From an uncultured bacterium (GTDB lineage Bacteria; DRYD01): a stretch of 64,000 nucleotides of DNA. Made by a program: the position numbers and the translations under genes. The stretch is from positions 1-64,000 of the forward strand of contig CAKZQG010000007.1 in the NCBI GenBank assembly GCA_937139605.1, given 5' to 3'. This document shows positions 22,478 to 48,556 of this stretch, piece by piece. Positions within the stretch are counted from its first letter, which is position 1, and every line of letters starts with the position of its first letter. Below the pieces are notes generated by a model that saw nothing but the letters and a program-made list of their open reading frames with translations, had not been told where the DNA came from and did not search any database.

Positions 22478-22759
22478 TTTTTGATTACCTCCTTAGCTTT
22501 TTTATATTTATTAGTTCAAAATTTAGTTATCCCTTTAAAAAATATATACTCTTTTATATCATTTTTAATTTTATTGTTTTAACAAACACTAGTATAAAGT
22601 ATATATATTTCAAAAGCCAATACTTTCCATAAAATAAACTTAAAAATTTAACTTTTTTTTTACAAAAAGCAAGTAATTTTTTATTCAAAAAAATAATATA
22701 TTTTAAACAGATAAGGTAAAAAACAACAAAAAAAATAAAGAACAAGGAGGTGCTAAAAA

Positions 22760-23314
22760 ATGAACACAGGGATAAAAGGAAATAACATAAACATTCAAGC
22801 AGGAAATATAATAATAAAAAACAATACAGTAGGAATAAAAGGGAAAACTACAAAAATAGAAGGAGGGAAATTAGAAGTAGAACTAAATAAAACAGGCATA
22901 GATAGTGTTAATTTATCTACAAATTTAGCCGAAGCTAATATAAAATCAAACGAAAAAGGAATAAAAGGAACTAATTTAGGTCTAAAAGCAGAACAAGTAG
23001 TAAATATAGCTAATAATACAAAAGGAGTAGACGGTAAAAATGTAGGAATTAATTCAAATTTAATAACAGTAAGCGGGAATGGCAAAGGAGTTAGCGGAGA
23101 AAATGTTACATCTTTAAAAGGACAAAGCGTTGTATTAACATCTAATCAAGTAGGTGCTGAAGGAGAAAACATGTTTATAAAAGGCTCTAAAGTAGTAGTT
23201 ACAAATAATACAATAGGTGCTCAAGGAAATTCCATTAATGTTAAAGCAGATGAGTTAATTATCGTTGACAACGTATTAGGATTTAAACAAAAACAAATTA
23301 AAAAACCACAATAA
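22760..23314 (+). CDS. Eight-repeat beta-solenoid-like protein
   Basis: 184 residues: MNT, then eight head-to-tail repeats of 21-22 residues covering residues 4-173, then a short basic tail. Each repeat begins G-[IVA]-x-G-x-N, continues with two short beta strands and ends N-N-T/K before the next Gly (starts near 4, 25, 46, 67, 89, 110, 132 and 153). Periodicity near 21, Asn and Gly turns and alternating aliphatic residues are what beta-solenoid coils look like. There is no signal peptide or membrane segment, and no Cys or Trp. AAGGAGG precedes the ATG. It heads a plus-strand set with the next two genes. Family unknown to me. Confidence 0.75.
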   Translation: MNTGIKGNNINIQAGNIIIKNNTVGIKGKTTKIEGGKLEVELNKTGIDSVNLSTNLAEANIKSNEKGIKGTNLGLKAEQVVNIANNTKGVDGKNVGINSNLITVSGNGKGVSGENVTSLKGQSVVLTSNQVGAEGENMFIKGSKVVVTNNTIGAQGNSINVKADELIIVDNVLGFKQKQIKKPQ

Positions 23315-23364
23315 GGAATCTCTATAAAAAATTAGAATAAGAAAATAGGGAGGTTAATTAATTC

Positions 23365-23739
23365 ATGAATAATATAAACAAAATAGATAACATAAAAACT
23401 CCTAGAATAGATAAAAAAGAATCGCCTAAAAAAATAGAGCAAACAGGTATAAGCGGCGAAAATATTAACATAAAAGCAGATAACATATATATAATAAATA
23501 ATAATTTCAATAACCCAATTTATAACAATTATAATAATACCTATCAAACTCCAAATTACCCTCCCTATTTTTATAATTTCTATAATTTCTATAACTTATT
23601 TAATACGCATTTATATAATTATAATCCTTTTATTTTAAGTTATTTTTATAATACTTCTCTTTTTAATCCTTATTTTTATTGCAATATTCTGCCTGGTTAT
23701 ATTTACTATAGTTTATTTAATTTCTTAAGTTATTTTTAA
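23365..23739 (+). CDS. Asn/Tyr/Phe-rich protein carrying one solenoid repeat
   Basis: 124 residues. After a charged start (residues 1-25), residues 28-48 read GISGENINIKADNIYI..., a single copy of the 21-residue repeat of the gene upstream. The rest is almost only Asn, Tyr, Phe, Pro and Leu (NYPPYFYNFYNFYN), a low-complexity aromatic tail. GGGAGG precedes the ATG. The shared repeat suggests that the two proteins assemble or co-polymerise; that is inference. It has no signal peptide. Confidence 0.65.
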   Translation: MNNINKIDNIKTPRIDKKESPKKIEQTGISGENINIKADNIYIINNNFNNPIYNNYNNTYQTPNYPPYFYNFYNFYNLFNTHLYNYNPFILSYFYNTSLFNPYFYCNILPGYIYYSLFNFLSYF

Positions 23740-23777
23740 TATTTTAGATATAATTTTATAAAATAGGGGGTGTTTTT

Positions 23778-24284
23778 ATGGAAATAAATAATAATATATC
23801 AAAAAACTCAATTCAACAATCTAATCCAACTCAACAGATTACTGCCCAATCAATTGCTCCTCAACAAGTTACTACTGGAAATGCTACTAATACTCAAAAT
23901 CAAATCCCACAAGATAATATTAATTTAAACAATATAGATAATAATAATCCTGTAGTAATTCCCAATAACAATCCAAATAATAATGAAGTTAATAATAACA
24001 TAGCAAAGTTTAGCTCAATGATAGGTAATCCATTTCAACAAAACCCATTTTATCAAAATCCATATAATAATCCATATCTAATAAATAGTGCTTACCACGA
24101 GCCAATTACTACCAATAATAGTAGTAGTTTATGGAAATATCTATTAGCAGGTGGCTTAGGATTCCTAACAGGAGCAGCTTTATCATCAATGATGTTCTAT
24201 TCTTATCCTCTTTACTATCCAATGTATTATTCTTATTATTATAGTCCCTGTTGGTATAGTTTTTATCCATATATGTGGTGGTAA
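23778..24284 (+). CDS. Asn/Gln-rich protein with glycine helix and Tyr/Trp C-terminus
   Basis: 168 residues. Residues 1-115 are a low-complexity Asn/Gln/Pro domain. A probable membrane helix WKYLLAGGLGFLTGAALSSM (about 122-142) follows, and the last 25 residues are Tyr/Trp/Pro-rich, ending in YMWW. The composition matches the neighbour at 23365, and AGGGGGTG precedes the ATG, so the three genes seem to be one set. It could anchor the set to the membrane. No known domain is seen. Confidence 0.6.
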   Translation: MEINNNISKNSIQQSNPTQQITAQSIAPQQVTTGNATNTQNQIPQDNINLNNIDNNNPVVIPNNNPNNNEVNNNIAKFSSMIGNPFQQNPFYQNPYNNPYLINSAYHEPITTNNSSSLWKYLLAGGLGFLTGAALSSMMFYSYPLYYPMYYSYYYSPCWYSFYPYMWW

Positions 24285-26609: not shown

Positions 26610-27674
26610 ATGATAAATAAAAAAGTTGTTTATATTTTTTCAATAATTTATTTTATAATGTTAATATTATTTTTATCATTTTCAGCTATTAAACAAGATT
26701 TTCTATGGTTAGATCCAATAAAGGGGGTAGAAAAAAGTAAATTAAATCCCATATTTTCTTATATTTCAAATGAAGGGAATGTAATTGGTGGATATTATAC
26801 ATATAAGGATGCAATATTTTTAGGAACTTTATATAATAATCAAAAAGTAAATAAATTAGAATCCTTAGGAGGATTAGAGAGTTGTATTTTTAAAGGCTCT
26901 GAAAACAATTTATTAGTAGGTTGGAGTTCAGATGAAACAGGAAAAACTATACCAGTTAGTTGGGATAATTCTGGAAAAATTACTAAATTAATGAACTATG
27001 AAGGAAAAGCATTATCTATATCTTATAATGGGAAATACATTGCAGGATGGTACTATAATGAATTAGATGAATTCAAACCATTTATTTATGATACTAACCA
27101 AAAAGATTTTAAAGAAATAAATAAATTAACTTTTGGGAATTATCAAGAATCTTATACCAATGGAATCAATGATAATGAAAATTTATGTGGATATTTATTA
27201 GGAAATAAAGATTCTACTATTCCTTTTGTTTATATAAATGAAAAAGTAATTGTACCTTCTGGAGTAAGGGAAGGAAGATTTTATCAGATATCAAACAACG
27301 ATATAGCAGTAGGTTATATAACTAACAAAAATAACGATAAAAGCAATGCTGTAATATTTGAAAATAACAACATAAAAAATATCTTTGATGATAATGTTAA
27401 ATCTATTGCATATTCTATATCTAAAGATGGGAAAGTAGTTGTAGGATACTTTGCAGATCCTAATGATAACGATTATGAGAAACCTTTTTTATATGTTAAT
27501 AATAAAGTAATTGATATAGAAAAAGAATTTAAAACTTATTTAGATCAGAATTCATTTTTAGTAGAAGCTCAAGGAGTTTCACCTAATGGGAATTATATTG
27601 TAGGAATAGGTTATAATTCTAAAAACTATTCTTATCAAGTATTTATTGCTAATGTATCAAAATTTGTTAAATAA
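26610..27674 (+). CDS. Seven-blade HAF-type beta-propeller, membrane-anchored or secreted
   Basis: 354 residues. A hydrophobic helix at about 7-27 acts as an uncleaved anchor or signal. The remainder contains seven repeats ending in a hydrophobic G-[WYI]-Y/W signature: VIGGYY, LLVGWS, YIAGWY, LCGYL, IAVGYI, VVVGYF and YIVGIG. Each is followed by acidic turns and an FIYD/FVYI strand. These match extracellular HAF-type repeat proteins of unknown role. It stands alone between two membrane-protein genes. A surface or periplasmic location follows from the N-terminus. Confidence 0.75.
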   Translation: MINKKVVYIFSIIYFIMLILFLSFSAIKQDFLWLDPIKGVEKSKLNPIFSYISNEGNVIGGYYTYKDAIFLGTLYNNQKVNKLESLGGLESCIFKGSENNLLVGWSSDETGKTIPVSWDNSGKITKLMNYEGKALSISYNGKYIAGWYYNELDEFKPFIYDTNQKDFKEINKLTFGNYQESYTNGINDNENLCGYLLGNKDSTIPFVYINEKVIVPSGVREGRFYQISNNDIAVGYITNKNNDKSNAVIFENNNIKNIFDDNVKSIAYSISKDGKVVVGYFADPNDNDYEKPFLYVNNKVIDIEKEFKTYLDQNSFLVEAQGVSPNGNYIVGIGYNSKNYSYQVFIANVSKFVK

Positions 27675-37457: not shown

Positions 37458-37946
37458 TTAAATATTTGTTTTAACAATGAAATAAATAATTTTAGCCAAA
37501 TTTAAAGCATAGTTTTCTTTTAATTCATAATCTTTATAGGGTTCAAGTTTCAATTCTGAATTATCTAAATATTTTAAATAAGTTCCGTTTGTAGAATTTA
37601 AATCCCTTACGTACCATCTATTATCTTTAAAAAAGACATTGATATGTTGTCTTGAAATCAATTTAGGATTAGATAACTTTTCAAAGATTTCTTTTCCTAA
37701 ATAATATCTTCCAATTATAGCATTATTTACAATTTCCAATTTAATTTCTTTATTTTCTAATAAAACGAGATATAAAAATTTACTTTCTTGTTTTGGTAAT
37801 TCTTTTGTTTCTTCTAATATTTTTTGCTCATTTAATTGTTGGGATTCAGTAACAGGATTAATTGAAGAAATATCAGCCATACAAATTATACATAATGTTT
37901 CAGTTACTTGGTTTTTATTTCCACAACTTGGACAAATTTTATACAT
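37458..37946 (-). CDS. Zinc-ribbon and FHA domain protein
   Basis: 162 residues. CPSCGNKNQVTETLCIIC (residues 5-22) is a Cys4 zinc ribbon; an acidic linker follows; from about 55 to 162 there is an FHA domain with IIGRYY, SRQHI and NSTNGTY, the phosphothreonine-binding set. FHA proteins dock to phosphorylated partners, so a Ser/Thr kinase should exist elsewhere. No Shine-Dalgarno is seen at this ATG. A hairpin separates it from the GFG-repeat gene upstream. Confidence 0.85.
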   Translation of the reverse strand: MYKICPSCGNKNQVTETLCIICMADISSINPVTESQQLNEQKILEETKELPKQESKFLYLVLLENKEIKLEIVNNAIIGRYYLGKEIFEKLSNPKLISRQHINVFFKDNRWYVRDLNSTNGTYLKYLDNSELKLEPYKDYELKENYALNLAKIIYFIVKTNI

Positions 37947-38028: not shown

Positions 38029-39228
38029 TTAAAATAGATAATTATAATTTCCAAAGCCCAATCCACCAAACCCAAATCCTCCAAATCCTAATCCAAATCC
38101 TCCAAACCCAAAGCCACCAAAACCAAATCCTCCAAACCCTCCAAATCCCAAACCAAATCCACCAAATCCACCAAATCCGCCAAATCCACCAAATCCCATA
38201 TTGTAGTTAAAGCTATTATAATTATAACCAGTTAATTCTTGTCTATAATTTATTTGTTCTCCTACTTTTCTTGAATAAGAACCTTTAGTAGTATCGAGTT
38301 CTTTTATATTCCAATCGGCAGCAGATTTAAGCTCATCTTTATCAACTTTACCATCTCCGTTTTTATCTTGCCAGATATAAACACTTTTAAGTTCATCACC
38401 AGCTATTTTTCCATCTTTATTTTTATCCCATAAATCTCTTACCTTTTCCCAACCATTTTTATATTTATTTTGTTCTCCATTTATACCAGTTTCAGTCATT
38501 AAGTTTTTACCGTCTAATTTTATTTGATCATATTTTCCTTGCTTAAGTAATTCTACTTGTTCTGGAGTTAAGTAAGTAACAAAAGCATCAGTTTTATCTC
38601 CTTGAGCCTTAACCCATTGAGTTCTATCCTTTATCCCATCACCATTTATATCAAACTGAATACCATTTTCTTTACCTTTATTTTCGATAGTAGTAGTTTC
38701 ATAAGTATTTCTAAATCTATCTCTACCTCTCCATTCTTCTCTAACTTGAGTTTGTCTATTAACTTGATAATCAGTATCAGTGACTGTAGCTTTACCATCA
38801 CCATCTATATCCAATATAACAGGATCTCTTCTACCCACCCATTGACTATTAACCAATCTAGTCCCCTCTTGAACTCTCCCATCAACACTACTGAATTTAT
38901 AATCAAAAGCTTTCCCTGTTTGGATAACATCATTTTTTTCTAAGATATTGCGATAAATTGGGGTAATAGAATTATAGGAGAATCCTAAATTACCAGCATA
39001 TAGATTAGAGAATCCCATTCCAAACCCACCAAAGGCTCCAAACCCGCCAAACCCGCCAAACCCGCCAAACCCGCCAAAGCCACCAAAAGCTCCAAAACCA
39101 CCATATAAATAAGAATATAGTTGTTGATAATTAATAGCAGAACCATAGAAATTATAATTTGAAATTGTTGGACCGTAATTATACCATTCATTTCTATAAA
39201 CATTTTGAATTGAGTAATCAAATGCCAT
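38029..39228 (-). CDS. GFG-repeat protein with central Ca2+-binding EF-hand-like region
   Basis: 399 residues in three parts. Residues about 43-75 are GGFG repeats; residues about 100-320 are a hydrophilic domain with DIDGDGKATVTD, DINGDGIKD, DKNKDGKIAGDEL and DKNGDGKVDKDEL, the DxDxDG loops of EF-hands of the RTX/dockerin type; residues about 345-395 are a second block of FGGFG/GLGFGG repeats ending in NYNYLF. There is no signal peptide, and Trp/Tyr/Arg content in the middle domain is high. GFG blocks in eukaryotic nucleoporins phase-separate; here a Ca-controlled aggregate is a possibility only. Strongly biased composition suggests an abundant structural protein. The start follows GGGGGTGTG. 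Confidence 0.75.
   Translation of the reverse strand: MAFDYSIQNVYRNEWYNYGPTISNYNFYGSAINYQQLYSYLYGGFGAFGGFGGFGGFGGFGGFGAFGGFGMGFSNLYAGNLGFSYNSITPIYRNILEKNDVIQTGKAFDYKFSSVDGRVQEGTRLVNSQWVGRRDPVILDIDGDGKATVTDTDYQVNRQTQVREEWRGRDRFRNTYETTTIENKGKENGIQFDINGDGIKDRTQWVKAQGDKTDAFVTYLTPEQVELLKQGKYDQIKLDGKNLMTETGINGEQNKYKNGWEKVRDLWDKNKDGKIAGDELKSVYIWQDKNGDGKVDKDELKSAADWNIKELDTTKGSYSRKVGEQINYRQELTGYNYNSFNYNMGFGGFGGFGGFGGFGLGFGGFGGFGFGGFGFGGFGLGFGGFGFGGLGFGNYNYLF
38041..38200 (-). repeat. Tandem GFG-coding repeat, 3' block
   Basis: Degenerate 9-15 bp units of CCAAATCC(A/T/G)C type code for the C-terminal glycine-phenylalanine repeats. Variation in copy number would change protein length in whole triplets of residues. 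Confidence 0.7.
39021..39105 (-). repeat. Tandem GFG-coding repeat, 5' block
   Basis: Four perfect 9-bp units AACCCGCCA (39041-39076), with flanking degenerate copies. They code for the GGF series and are prone to slippage in multiples of three codons. Confidence 0.8.
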
Positions 39229-47224: not shown

Positions 47225-48556
47225 ATGTCCAAACAAAAAGGAGAAGAAAAACTAAAAGATAATAAAGATCTAAAACAGGAAGATATAGATAACCAACAAA
47301 ATTTAACCCAAGAATCATTAGATTCTACTAACATATCCCCTGTATTTAGTAAACGTATGTTTCCAGGGATAGCTATAAAAGCTATACAGCATCCATTTGA
47401 TGCTAAAGCTACTGAAGTATTATCCAAAGTACCTTTATTACCTCAGCTTTTAAAGTTTCTAAACAAAATATTTCAAGAAGAATCTTTGTATGTTTTATAC
47501 CATGGAAGTTATTTAAAAGTTTCTCAAAATCAGTATCCAAGATTGTATAGAGTTTTTGAAGAAGCGGTTAATATTCTTGATTTAAAAGTAATGCCAACTT
47601 TATTTTTAGCACATATGGGTAATCCTATAGTGTTTTCAGCAGGTGTTGAACAACCTTTTATAGTTATTAGTAGTGAAATAACAGAAATACTAACCGAAGA
47701 AGAATTACTATTTATGTTAGGTAGAGAAATAGGATTAATAAAATTTGGTCAAAATATATATAAAACTTTAGCAGCATTACTAGGAGTAGCAGGTGCTGGT
47801 GGTATGGCAATTATGTCAAATTTTATTAATATAGGTGGTTTCAATTTAGGAGGGGTAGGAAGCTTAGCAGCAGGTGGTGGTTTATTTATATTAGGAGCAA
47901 CTTTAGTCTATTGGGAAAGAATGACACATTTTTCAGGGGATAGAGCTGGTTTCTTAGTAGTACAAGATAAAAATATAGCATTAAGGGCATTATCTAAATT
48001 AGCAGGATTTTCTCATAAATATTACGATGATGAAATAAACATAGAAGCAGTTTTAGAACAAGCTAAACTACTGGATAATACAAATTTTATGCAAACAATT
48101 CATAAATTTTTAGCAATGATTCAACTTCCACATCCATTTTTAGCTTATAGAATAAAAGAATTAAATGCTTGGGCAGATTCTTATGAAGCTCAAAGCATAC
48201 TAAATGGGTACTATCCATTAGAAAGTAATTATTATAAACAACAAGGATACCAATATCAACAACATACTCCATATCCACCATATGCTCCATATCCGCCATA
48301 TCCTCCTTACCCAGCATATGCACCATATCCAGCTTATCCTCCACAAAATGTACCATATGCACCACAGCAGCAATCTCAACACAATATCCCCAATTATCAG
48401 CAAAATTTACAGTATCCTCAACAAAATGTTCCATATCCTCATACATCATATCCTCCACAAAATGCACCATATTCTTCACAAAATATTCCATATTTTCAAC
48501 AAAATATCCCTTCAACCTACGTACCACCTACTCCTAAACCACAAAATACTACATAA
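47225..48556 (+). CDS. M48-family pseudopeptidase with Pro/Tyr-rich tail
   Basis: 443 residues. Residues about 90-330 fit the M48/HtpX fold, including FSAGVEQPFIVISSEITEILTEEEL and the helix GREIGLIKFG, and FSGDRAGFLVVQDKNIALRALSKLAGF matches the second motif. Yet the HExxH zinc motif is REIGL and the third zinc Glu is missing (THFSGDRAG for an expected S-E-L-S-A-D-R-A-G), so no zinc site remains. A Gly-rich membrane hairpin lies at about 180-230. The last 80 residues are a Pro/Tyr/Gln tail with PYPPYAPYPPYP-type repeats. An inactive scaffold is inferred. AAGGAGGTG precedes the ATG. Confidence 0.8.
   Translation: MSKQKGEEKLKDNKDLKQEDIDNQQNLTQESLDSTNISPVFSKRMFPGIAIKAIQHPFDAKATEVLSKVPLLPQLLKFLNKIFQEESLYVLYHGSYLKVSQNQYPRLYRVFEEAVNILDLKVMPTLFLAHMGNPIVFSAGVEQPFIVISSEITEILTEEELLFMLGREIGLIKFGQNIYKTLAALLGVAGAGGMAIMSNFINIGGFNLGGVGSLAAGGGLFILGATLVYWERMTHFSGDRAGFLVVQDKNIALRALSKLAGFSHKYYDDEINIEAVLEQAKLLDNTNFMQTIHKFLAMIQLPHPFLAYRIKELNAWADSYEAQSILNGYYPLESNYYKQQGYQYQQHTPYPPYAPYPPYPPYPAYAPYPAYPPQNVPYAPQQQSQHNIPNYQQNLQYPQQNVPYPHTSYPPQNAPYSSQNIPYFQQNIPSTYVPPTPKPQNTT

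Follow-up and report, generated by a model that had tools for sequence, protein, structure and literature searches.

The window, that is the whole 64,000-nucleotide stretch analysed here, carries a set of three small genes encoding the proteins P1, P2 and P3. All three genes lie on the + strand, separated by intergenic gaps of 50 and 38 bases. The original prediction had proposed a three-gene set at this locus, and the three open reading frames (ORFs) are indeed present, each with an upstream Shine-Dalgarno-like sequence. The features are as follows.

22744..22752, +: Shine-Dalgarno-like AAGGAGGTG of P1, read from the sequence
22760..23314, +: P1, 184 residues, predicted eight-coil β-helix protein (ORF, repeat analysis, predicted model)
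22769..23278, +: eight coils of 21-22 residues in P1, residues 4-173 (repeat spacing, lag-21 self-similarity)
23347-23353, +: Shine-Dalgarno-like AGGGAGG of P2, read from the sequence
23365..23739, +: P2, 124 residues, putative single-coil protein (ORF, predicted model)
23446..23508, +: the one coil of P2 (residues 28-48), closest to coil 1 of P1 (sequence comparison)
23509..23736, +: aromatic tail of P2, 76 residues, 38% Phe/Trp/Tyr and zero charged residues (composition)
23765-23772, +: Shine-Dalgarno-like AGGGGGTG of P3, read from the sequence
23778..24284, +: P3, 168 residues (ORF)
23778..24128, +: residues 1-117 of P3, rich in Asn/Gln (38%) and probably disordered (composition)
24129..24197, +: strongly conserved, glycine-rich hydrophobic helix of P3 (LWKYLLAGGLGFLTGAALSSMMF; alignment, hydropathy peak)
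24198..24281, +: tail of P3, rich in Tyr/Trp and strongly conserved (alignment, composition)

A promoter scan gave 18 sites compared to 15.1 expected from shuffles and found no terminator, and Rfam returned nothing near the three-gene set.

Several other features of the window stand apart from this set. The repeat protein encoded at 26610-27674 (+) resembles, by reading, the HAF-repeat extracellular proteins, with no Pfam match at E ≤ 0.01. A 399-residue protein at 38029-39228 (-) begins and ends in long runs of GGFGGFG, with an EF-hand match between them, and beside it lies a small protein that reads as FHA-like (37458-37946). An M48 peptidase at 47225-48556 (+) ends in a C-terminal low-complexity tail rich in Tyr, Pro and Gln (YPPYPPYPAYAPYPAYPP...). 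The 23S rRNA gene at 58089-63370 (-) spans 5.28 kb and contains three LAGLIDADG endonuclease ORFs (58612-59199, 59973-60503 and 60689-61246), and its length together with these ORFs indicates that it probably holds several introns.

Repeat organization and predicted fold of P1

P1 consists almost entirely of its eight coils, which start at residues 4, 25, 46, 67, 89, 110, 132 and 153; six have 21 residues and two have 22, and a ninth coil begins at residue 174. The earlier description of eight back-to-back repeats forming nearly the entire protein thus holds under shuffle tests. The chain of G-[IVAF] starts at a spacing of 21-22 residues is nine long, whereas 20,000 shuffles gave chains of no more than four. 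BLOSUM62 self-similarity has its top peak at lag 21 (0.82, z 7.9), against a maximum of 0.29 over all lags in 2,000 shuffled sequences. Chance or composition as the source of the repeat is ruled out by these shuffles. Further peaks at lags 7 and 14 suggest three similar faces of ~7 residues each per turn. Across the eight coils, the best kept columns are G1 (8/8), G4 (7/8), N19 (7/8) and N6 (6/8).

The β-solenoid proposed for P1 was recovered by AlphaFold2, which from two sequences predicted an all-β solenoid with a mean pLDDT of 81.3 and a pTM of 0.79. Three of the five models are of similar confidence (81, 80 and 79), and two are poor (52.4 and 49.8). The last turn and the C-terminus have low confidence, so that a cap or disorder may be present at the far edge. 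At the other end, the first coil begins at residue 3-4 with no preceding segment and looks uncapped, which argues that at least this edge is exposed. No signal peptide is evident by inspection and hydropathy, without a predictor; the maximum 19-residue Kyte-Doolittle mean of P1 is 0.15-0.70 in five genomes, and the N-terminus is not hydrophobic.

Structural superposition using VIA-align 2 on Foldseek candidates revealed that the P1 model resembles HxuA, with an RMSD of 2.1 Å over 161 residues, HMW1, with an RMSD of 2.1 Å over 169 residues, and tapirin, with an RMSD of 2.8 Å over 173 residues. With the same program it superposes onto Cthe_2159 (PDB 4phb) with an RMSD of 2.8 Å over 179 residues and a Z-score of 15.9. 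From these low-RMSD superpositions, P1 is predicted to be a right-handed β-helix. The LpxD, GlmU and LpxA families are left-handed helices; they reach Z-scores of ~15-17 with P1 but at an RMSD of ~12 Å, and were rejected as stacks of opposite hand. The two-partner-secretion domains of HxuA and HMW1 are the closest to P1 among the 50 VIA-align rows. HxuA and HMW1 are exoproteins that are secreted and carry N-terminal secretion domains, whereas P1 has no evident signal peptide and no TpsB-like neighbour was recognised by eye in the loci read.

Foldseek itself returned nothing significant for the P1 model against solved structures (best E 0.93) and no clear match against viral models (best E 1.9e-3). 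The bactofilin 6ria appears in the Foldseek list at E 2.4 and lies outside the 50 VIA-align rows, from which its absence is uninformative.

The single coil of P2 and the hydrophobic parts of P2 and P3

The solenoid unit of P1 recurs once in P2. Aligned without gaps to P1 residues 2-22, the P2 unit scores 67, whereas shuffles of P1 reach at most 48 (n=5,000), which rules out chance or composition as the source of the P2 coil. The sharing of a unit by P1 and P2 asserted in the original prediction is therefore beyond chance, and P2 has the unit once, ahead of its aromatic tail, as described there. The P2 coil is closest to coil 1 of P1 in 4/5 genomes. It is a near copy in g1, the genus of the window, with scores of 56 and 60. 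In two genomes of the other genus, g2, the resemblance is less clear, with 39 and 37 for coil 1 and 35 and 36 for the next-best coils; the exception is G005, in which it scores 38 against coil 7 and 36 against coil 1. In addition, a P2 profile independently finds the first coil of P1, if weakly (G000, E 0.0175; G001, E 0.083). Such resemblance suggests that the P2 coil might stand in for the first coil of a next P1. Structure prediction, named beforehand as a check on these proteins, gave the P1 solenoid, but the P2 model is poor: from two sequences AlphaFold2 reached a pLDDT of 43.9, with the coil unstructured and the tail partly and weakly helical.

P3 is organized as described earlier, with the Asn/Gln-rich part followed by the glycine-rich helix segment, which begins with LWKYLLAGGLG, and then by the aromatic end. 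Its invariant columns lie mostly in the helix and the tail. On the Wimley-White octanol scale, the 19-residue minima of P2 and P3 lie between -10.3 and -17.7 kcal/mol in all five genomes, and those of P1 between +4.5 and +8.3 kcal/mol. The tails of P2 and P3 are thus strongly membrane-seeking by these values, and the two proteins are probably found at a membrane. By hydropathy P3 is a predicted membrane protein, and besides P3, P2 is a candidate anchor via its hydrophobic tail. The richness of both tails in Asn and Tyr is partly compositional, as the window has a GC content of 26%, and such a composition raises the share of Asn, Tyr, Ile and Phe.

Conservation, distribution and database relatives

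The three-gene set is real, conserved and lineage-restricted, and has so far been found in one small bacterial family. P2 and P3 occur in 6/6 family genomes (G000-G005) and P1 in 5/6; in the genome that lacks P1 (G003), the contig ends inside P2. Compared to L007, a genus neighbour from the public MAG Deltaproteobacteria bacterium isolate RSWP7 that is apparently the same contig as in G001, the pN/pS values of the window are 0.21 for P1, 0.25 for P2 and 0.41 for P3, which points to purifying selection on all three. Downstream of the set lies an HMG-CoA-lyase-like gene in g1, and in 4/4 g2 genomes the gene of a HAD phosphatase similar to sugar (heptose) phosphatases, both named by reading. As these neighbours differ while the order of the set is kept, the three genes stay a unit. 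On its other flank, by reading, P1 directly adjoins a serS-like gene in G002 and G004, and in G005 a 982-residue pilin-like protein (L037, 8278-11226, -) lies between the two.

Profiles were built from the window and four of the other five family genomes, leaving out G003. At E ≤ 1e-5 the P1 profile (A1) matched 5/386 genomes, all of them family members. The P3 profile (A3), run at E ≤ 1e-3, matched 6/386 genomes, which are the six family members. None of the P1, P2 and P3 profiles matched G006, a 73% complete genome from another family of the same order. At looser limits there are a few weak matches outside the family (G095, G098, G054, G118, G016, G019, G026, G028 and G056), those of the A1 and A3 profiles falling below the stricter limits. 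A further P1 match in G048 (L006, E 9.7e-4) sits in an LptC-like gene by neighbourhood reading and was rejected. The A1 and A3 profiles found no relative in viral contigs, and P1 found none in phages and plasmids.

The window copy of P1 matches no Pfam family at E ≤ 10 and reaches at most 16 bits in NCBIfam, far below the cut-offs. P2 against PF22133 (18.8 bits, cut-off 52.2) and P3 against PF13389 (12.2 bits, cut-off 27) also fall far below and were read as compositional. PHROGs gave a single weak match, to P2. Against PDB sequences P1 stays at chance level (E 0.39), its L005 orthologue reaches E 1.6 and the A1 profile finds nothing. Curli proteins (CsgA/CsgB) have curlin repeats and a Sec signal peptide; Pfam finds no curlin repeat in P1-P3 at E ≤ 10, and the P1 N-terminus, as noted, is not hydrophobic. 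Judged by titles and the openings of abstracts, the papers listed for solenoid filaments, single coils and capped helices include nothing recognisable as this set, and none was found on the isolate RSWP7.

The bactofilin profile PF04519 matches neither P1-P3 nor the five P1 orthologues at E ≤ 10. It also finds nothing in any of the five family genomes G000-G004 or in G006, all of these genomes being incomplete; the same search gave three PF04519 matches in G007, a genome from elsewhere. MreB and Omp85 were each found in 6/7 genomes and not found in G004, which is 71% complete. From Omp85, the lineage looks diderm-like.

A possible membrane-tethered assembly and its alternatives

We propose, as a tentative model that falls somewhat short of probable, that the set forms a cytoplasmic β-helix rod or filament of P1 that is tethered to the membrane by way of the P2 coil and P3. 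The mechanism first suggested, with end-to-end assembly, capping by P2 and anchoring by P3, would be plausible in this light. The turns of a β-helix are spaced by ~4.8 Å, and P1 would be an eight-turn right-handed β-helix ~4 nm long. With the edge of the first coil exposed, P1 copies would stack edge to edge and head to tail in the cytoplasm, giving a thin rod or filament independent of nucleotides. The P2 coil, imitating the first coil of P1, would occupy the opposite P1 edge, where the next P1 would otherwise sit. With its aromatic tail in the membrane interface, P2 may cap, seed or tether the rod. P3 would be the other membrane component: through its Asn/Gln-rich part as a tether and through its hydrophobic helix, it would attach the assembly to the inner membrane or organise it there. 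The genes, their repeats, conservation and linkage are observed and the fold of P1 is predicted, whereas we infer the stacking of P1, the contact between P1 and P2, the insertion into the membrane and the cytoplasmic location. Against the rod, the P2 coil is unstructured in its own model and in g2 is barely closer to coil 1 than to other coils.

The closest parallel in logic is provided by the bactofilins, small right-handed β-helix proteins that form nucleotide-independent polymers and typically bind membranes (PMC12448750, excerpt). P1 likewise has a predicted triangular right-handed β-helix core, and its polymerisation is what we infer. However, the repeats of M. xanthus bactofilins have 16-18 residues (PMC4372379, excerpt), compared to 21-22 in P1. 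Moreover, bactofilins carry a terminal membrane-targeting peptide, whereas here a separate single-coil partner, P2, and the predicted membrane protein P3 would serve instead. By this comparison the three-gene set appears bactofilin-like in logic, yet it is not a bactofilin. As MreB and Omp85 are present but a bactofilin was not found in the genomes searched, a β-helix scaffold of another kind could fill the bactofilin role in this lineage.

Three other explanations have to be weighed against the rod. A small divergent carbohydrate-binding β-helix of the Cthe_2159 type, located in the envelope or outside through an unrecognised export route and anchored at the surface by P2 and P3, is an unlikely identity for P1. 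The C. thermocellum Cthe_2159 protein itself is exported. Proteins of this family are β-helices, and their ligands are cellulose and acid sugars (PMC6712302, excerpt). The right-handed fold, the superposition of the P1 model at 2.8 Å and the sugar phosphatase-like gene next to the set in g2 fit this explanation, and 3/5 P1 orthologues, all from g2, score above the 25.8-bit cut-off of PF14262 (30.0, 27.5 and 33.2). The P1 of the window and that of L007, however, do not match, and the matches that exist cover profile positions 115-202 or 116-202, ~88/262, comprising the regular repeats only, so that they may reflect distant kinship or convergence of coils. The claim that no such system is familiar has to be qualified by these partial PF14262 matches of the orthologues, although the window P1 has no family match. 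In addition, ligand recognition in this family needs calcium (PMC8746771, excerpt), and P1 has few Asp residues, which makes such calcium sites unlikely. Because the match is partial and a signal peptide is not evident, with the first coil of P1 starting from residue 4, we keep P1 out of the Cthe_2159 family.

A docking scaffold is similarly doubtful: P1 would act as a monomer or dimer, the P2 coil would cap one end against aggregation, and P2 and P3 would keep P1 at the membrane as a binding platform. Covering an edge takes at least one coil, and the membrane-seeking tails suit such holding; however, the P2 coil is like coil 1 and not like a specialised cap, and P1 itself provides no cap for its first coil, points that speak against the scaffold without being decisive. 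Templating in the manner of NWD2 and HET-s is a distinctly remote prospect. The adjacent genes of that pair have in common a 21-residue triangular-solenoid unit with conserved Asn positions, of which NWD2 has one copy and HET-s more than one (PMC3321046, excerpt). A similar motif of ~21 residues is common to the adjacent P1 and P2 and single in P2, and the bacterial BASS amyloid signalling pairs are likewise neighbouring genes with a common solenoid or amyloid unit (PMC7889193, excerpt). The P2 coil would then fold only when clustered by its tail at the membrane and seed the stacking of P1, or drive condensates together with the low-complexity tails, consistent with the coil being predicted unstructured alone and with the low-complexity, aromatic tails of P2 and P3. 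Yet P1-P3 have no sensor or death domain, Pfam finding no NLR, HeLo or BELL-like domain of the kinds treated in PMC7889193, and beyond its eight coils P1 lacks a globular domain. P1 is moreover predicted to be an ordinary solenoid by itself, for which a template is unneeded.

Returning to the membrane-tethered rod, its broadest form, a new bacterial cytoskeletal or scaffold filament in which a dedicated one-coil protein controls the ends of a right-handed β-helix polymer and tethers it to the membrane, in a lineage in which the searches found no bactofilin, is somewhat unlikely. Solenoid proteins make up few of the filaments of bacteria, with bactofilins as the chief example studied. P1, P2 and P3 are all small enough for direct testing. 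If true, the set would be a second solenoid filament system beside the bactofilins, with one coil of the rod placed on a partner protein, and the one-coil partner would show a simple way in which nature can cap or seed a β-helix polymer.
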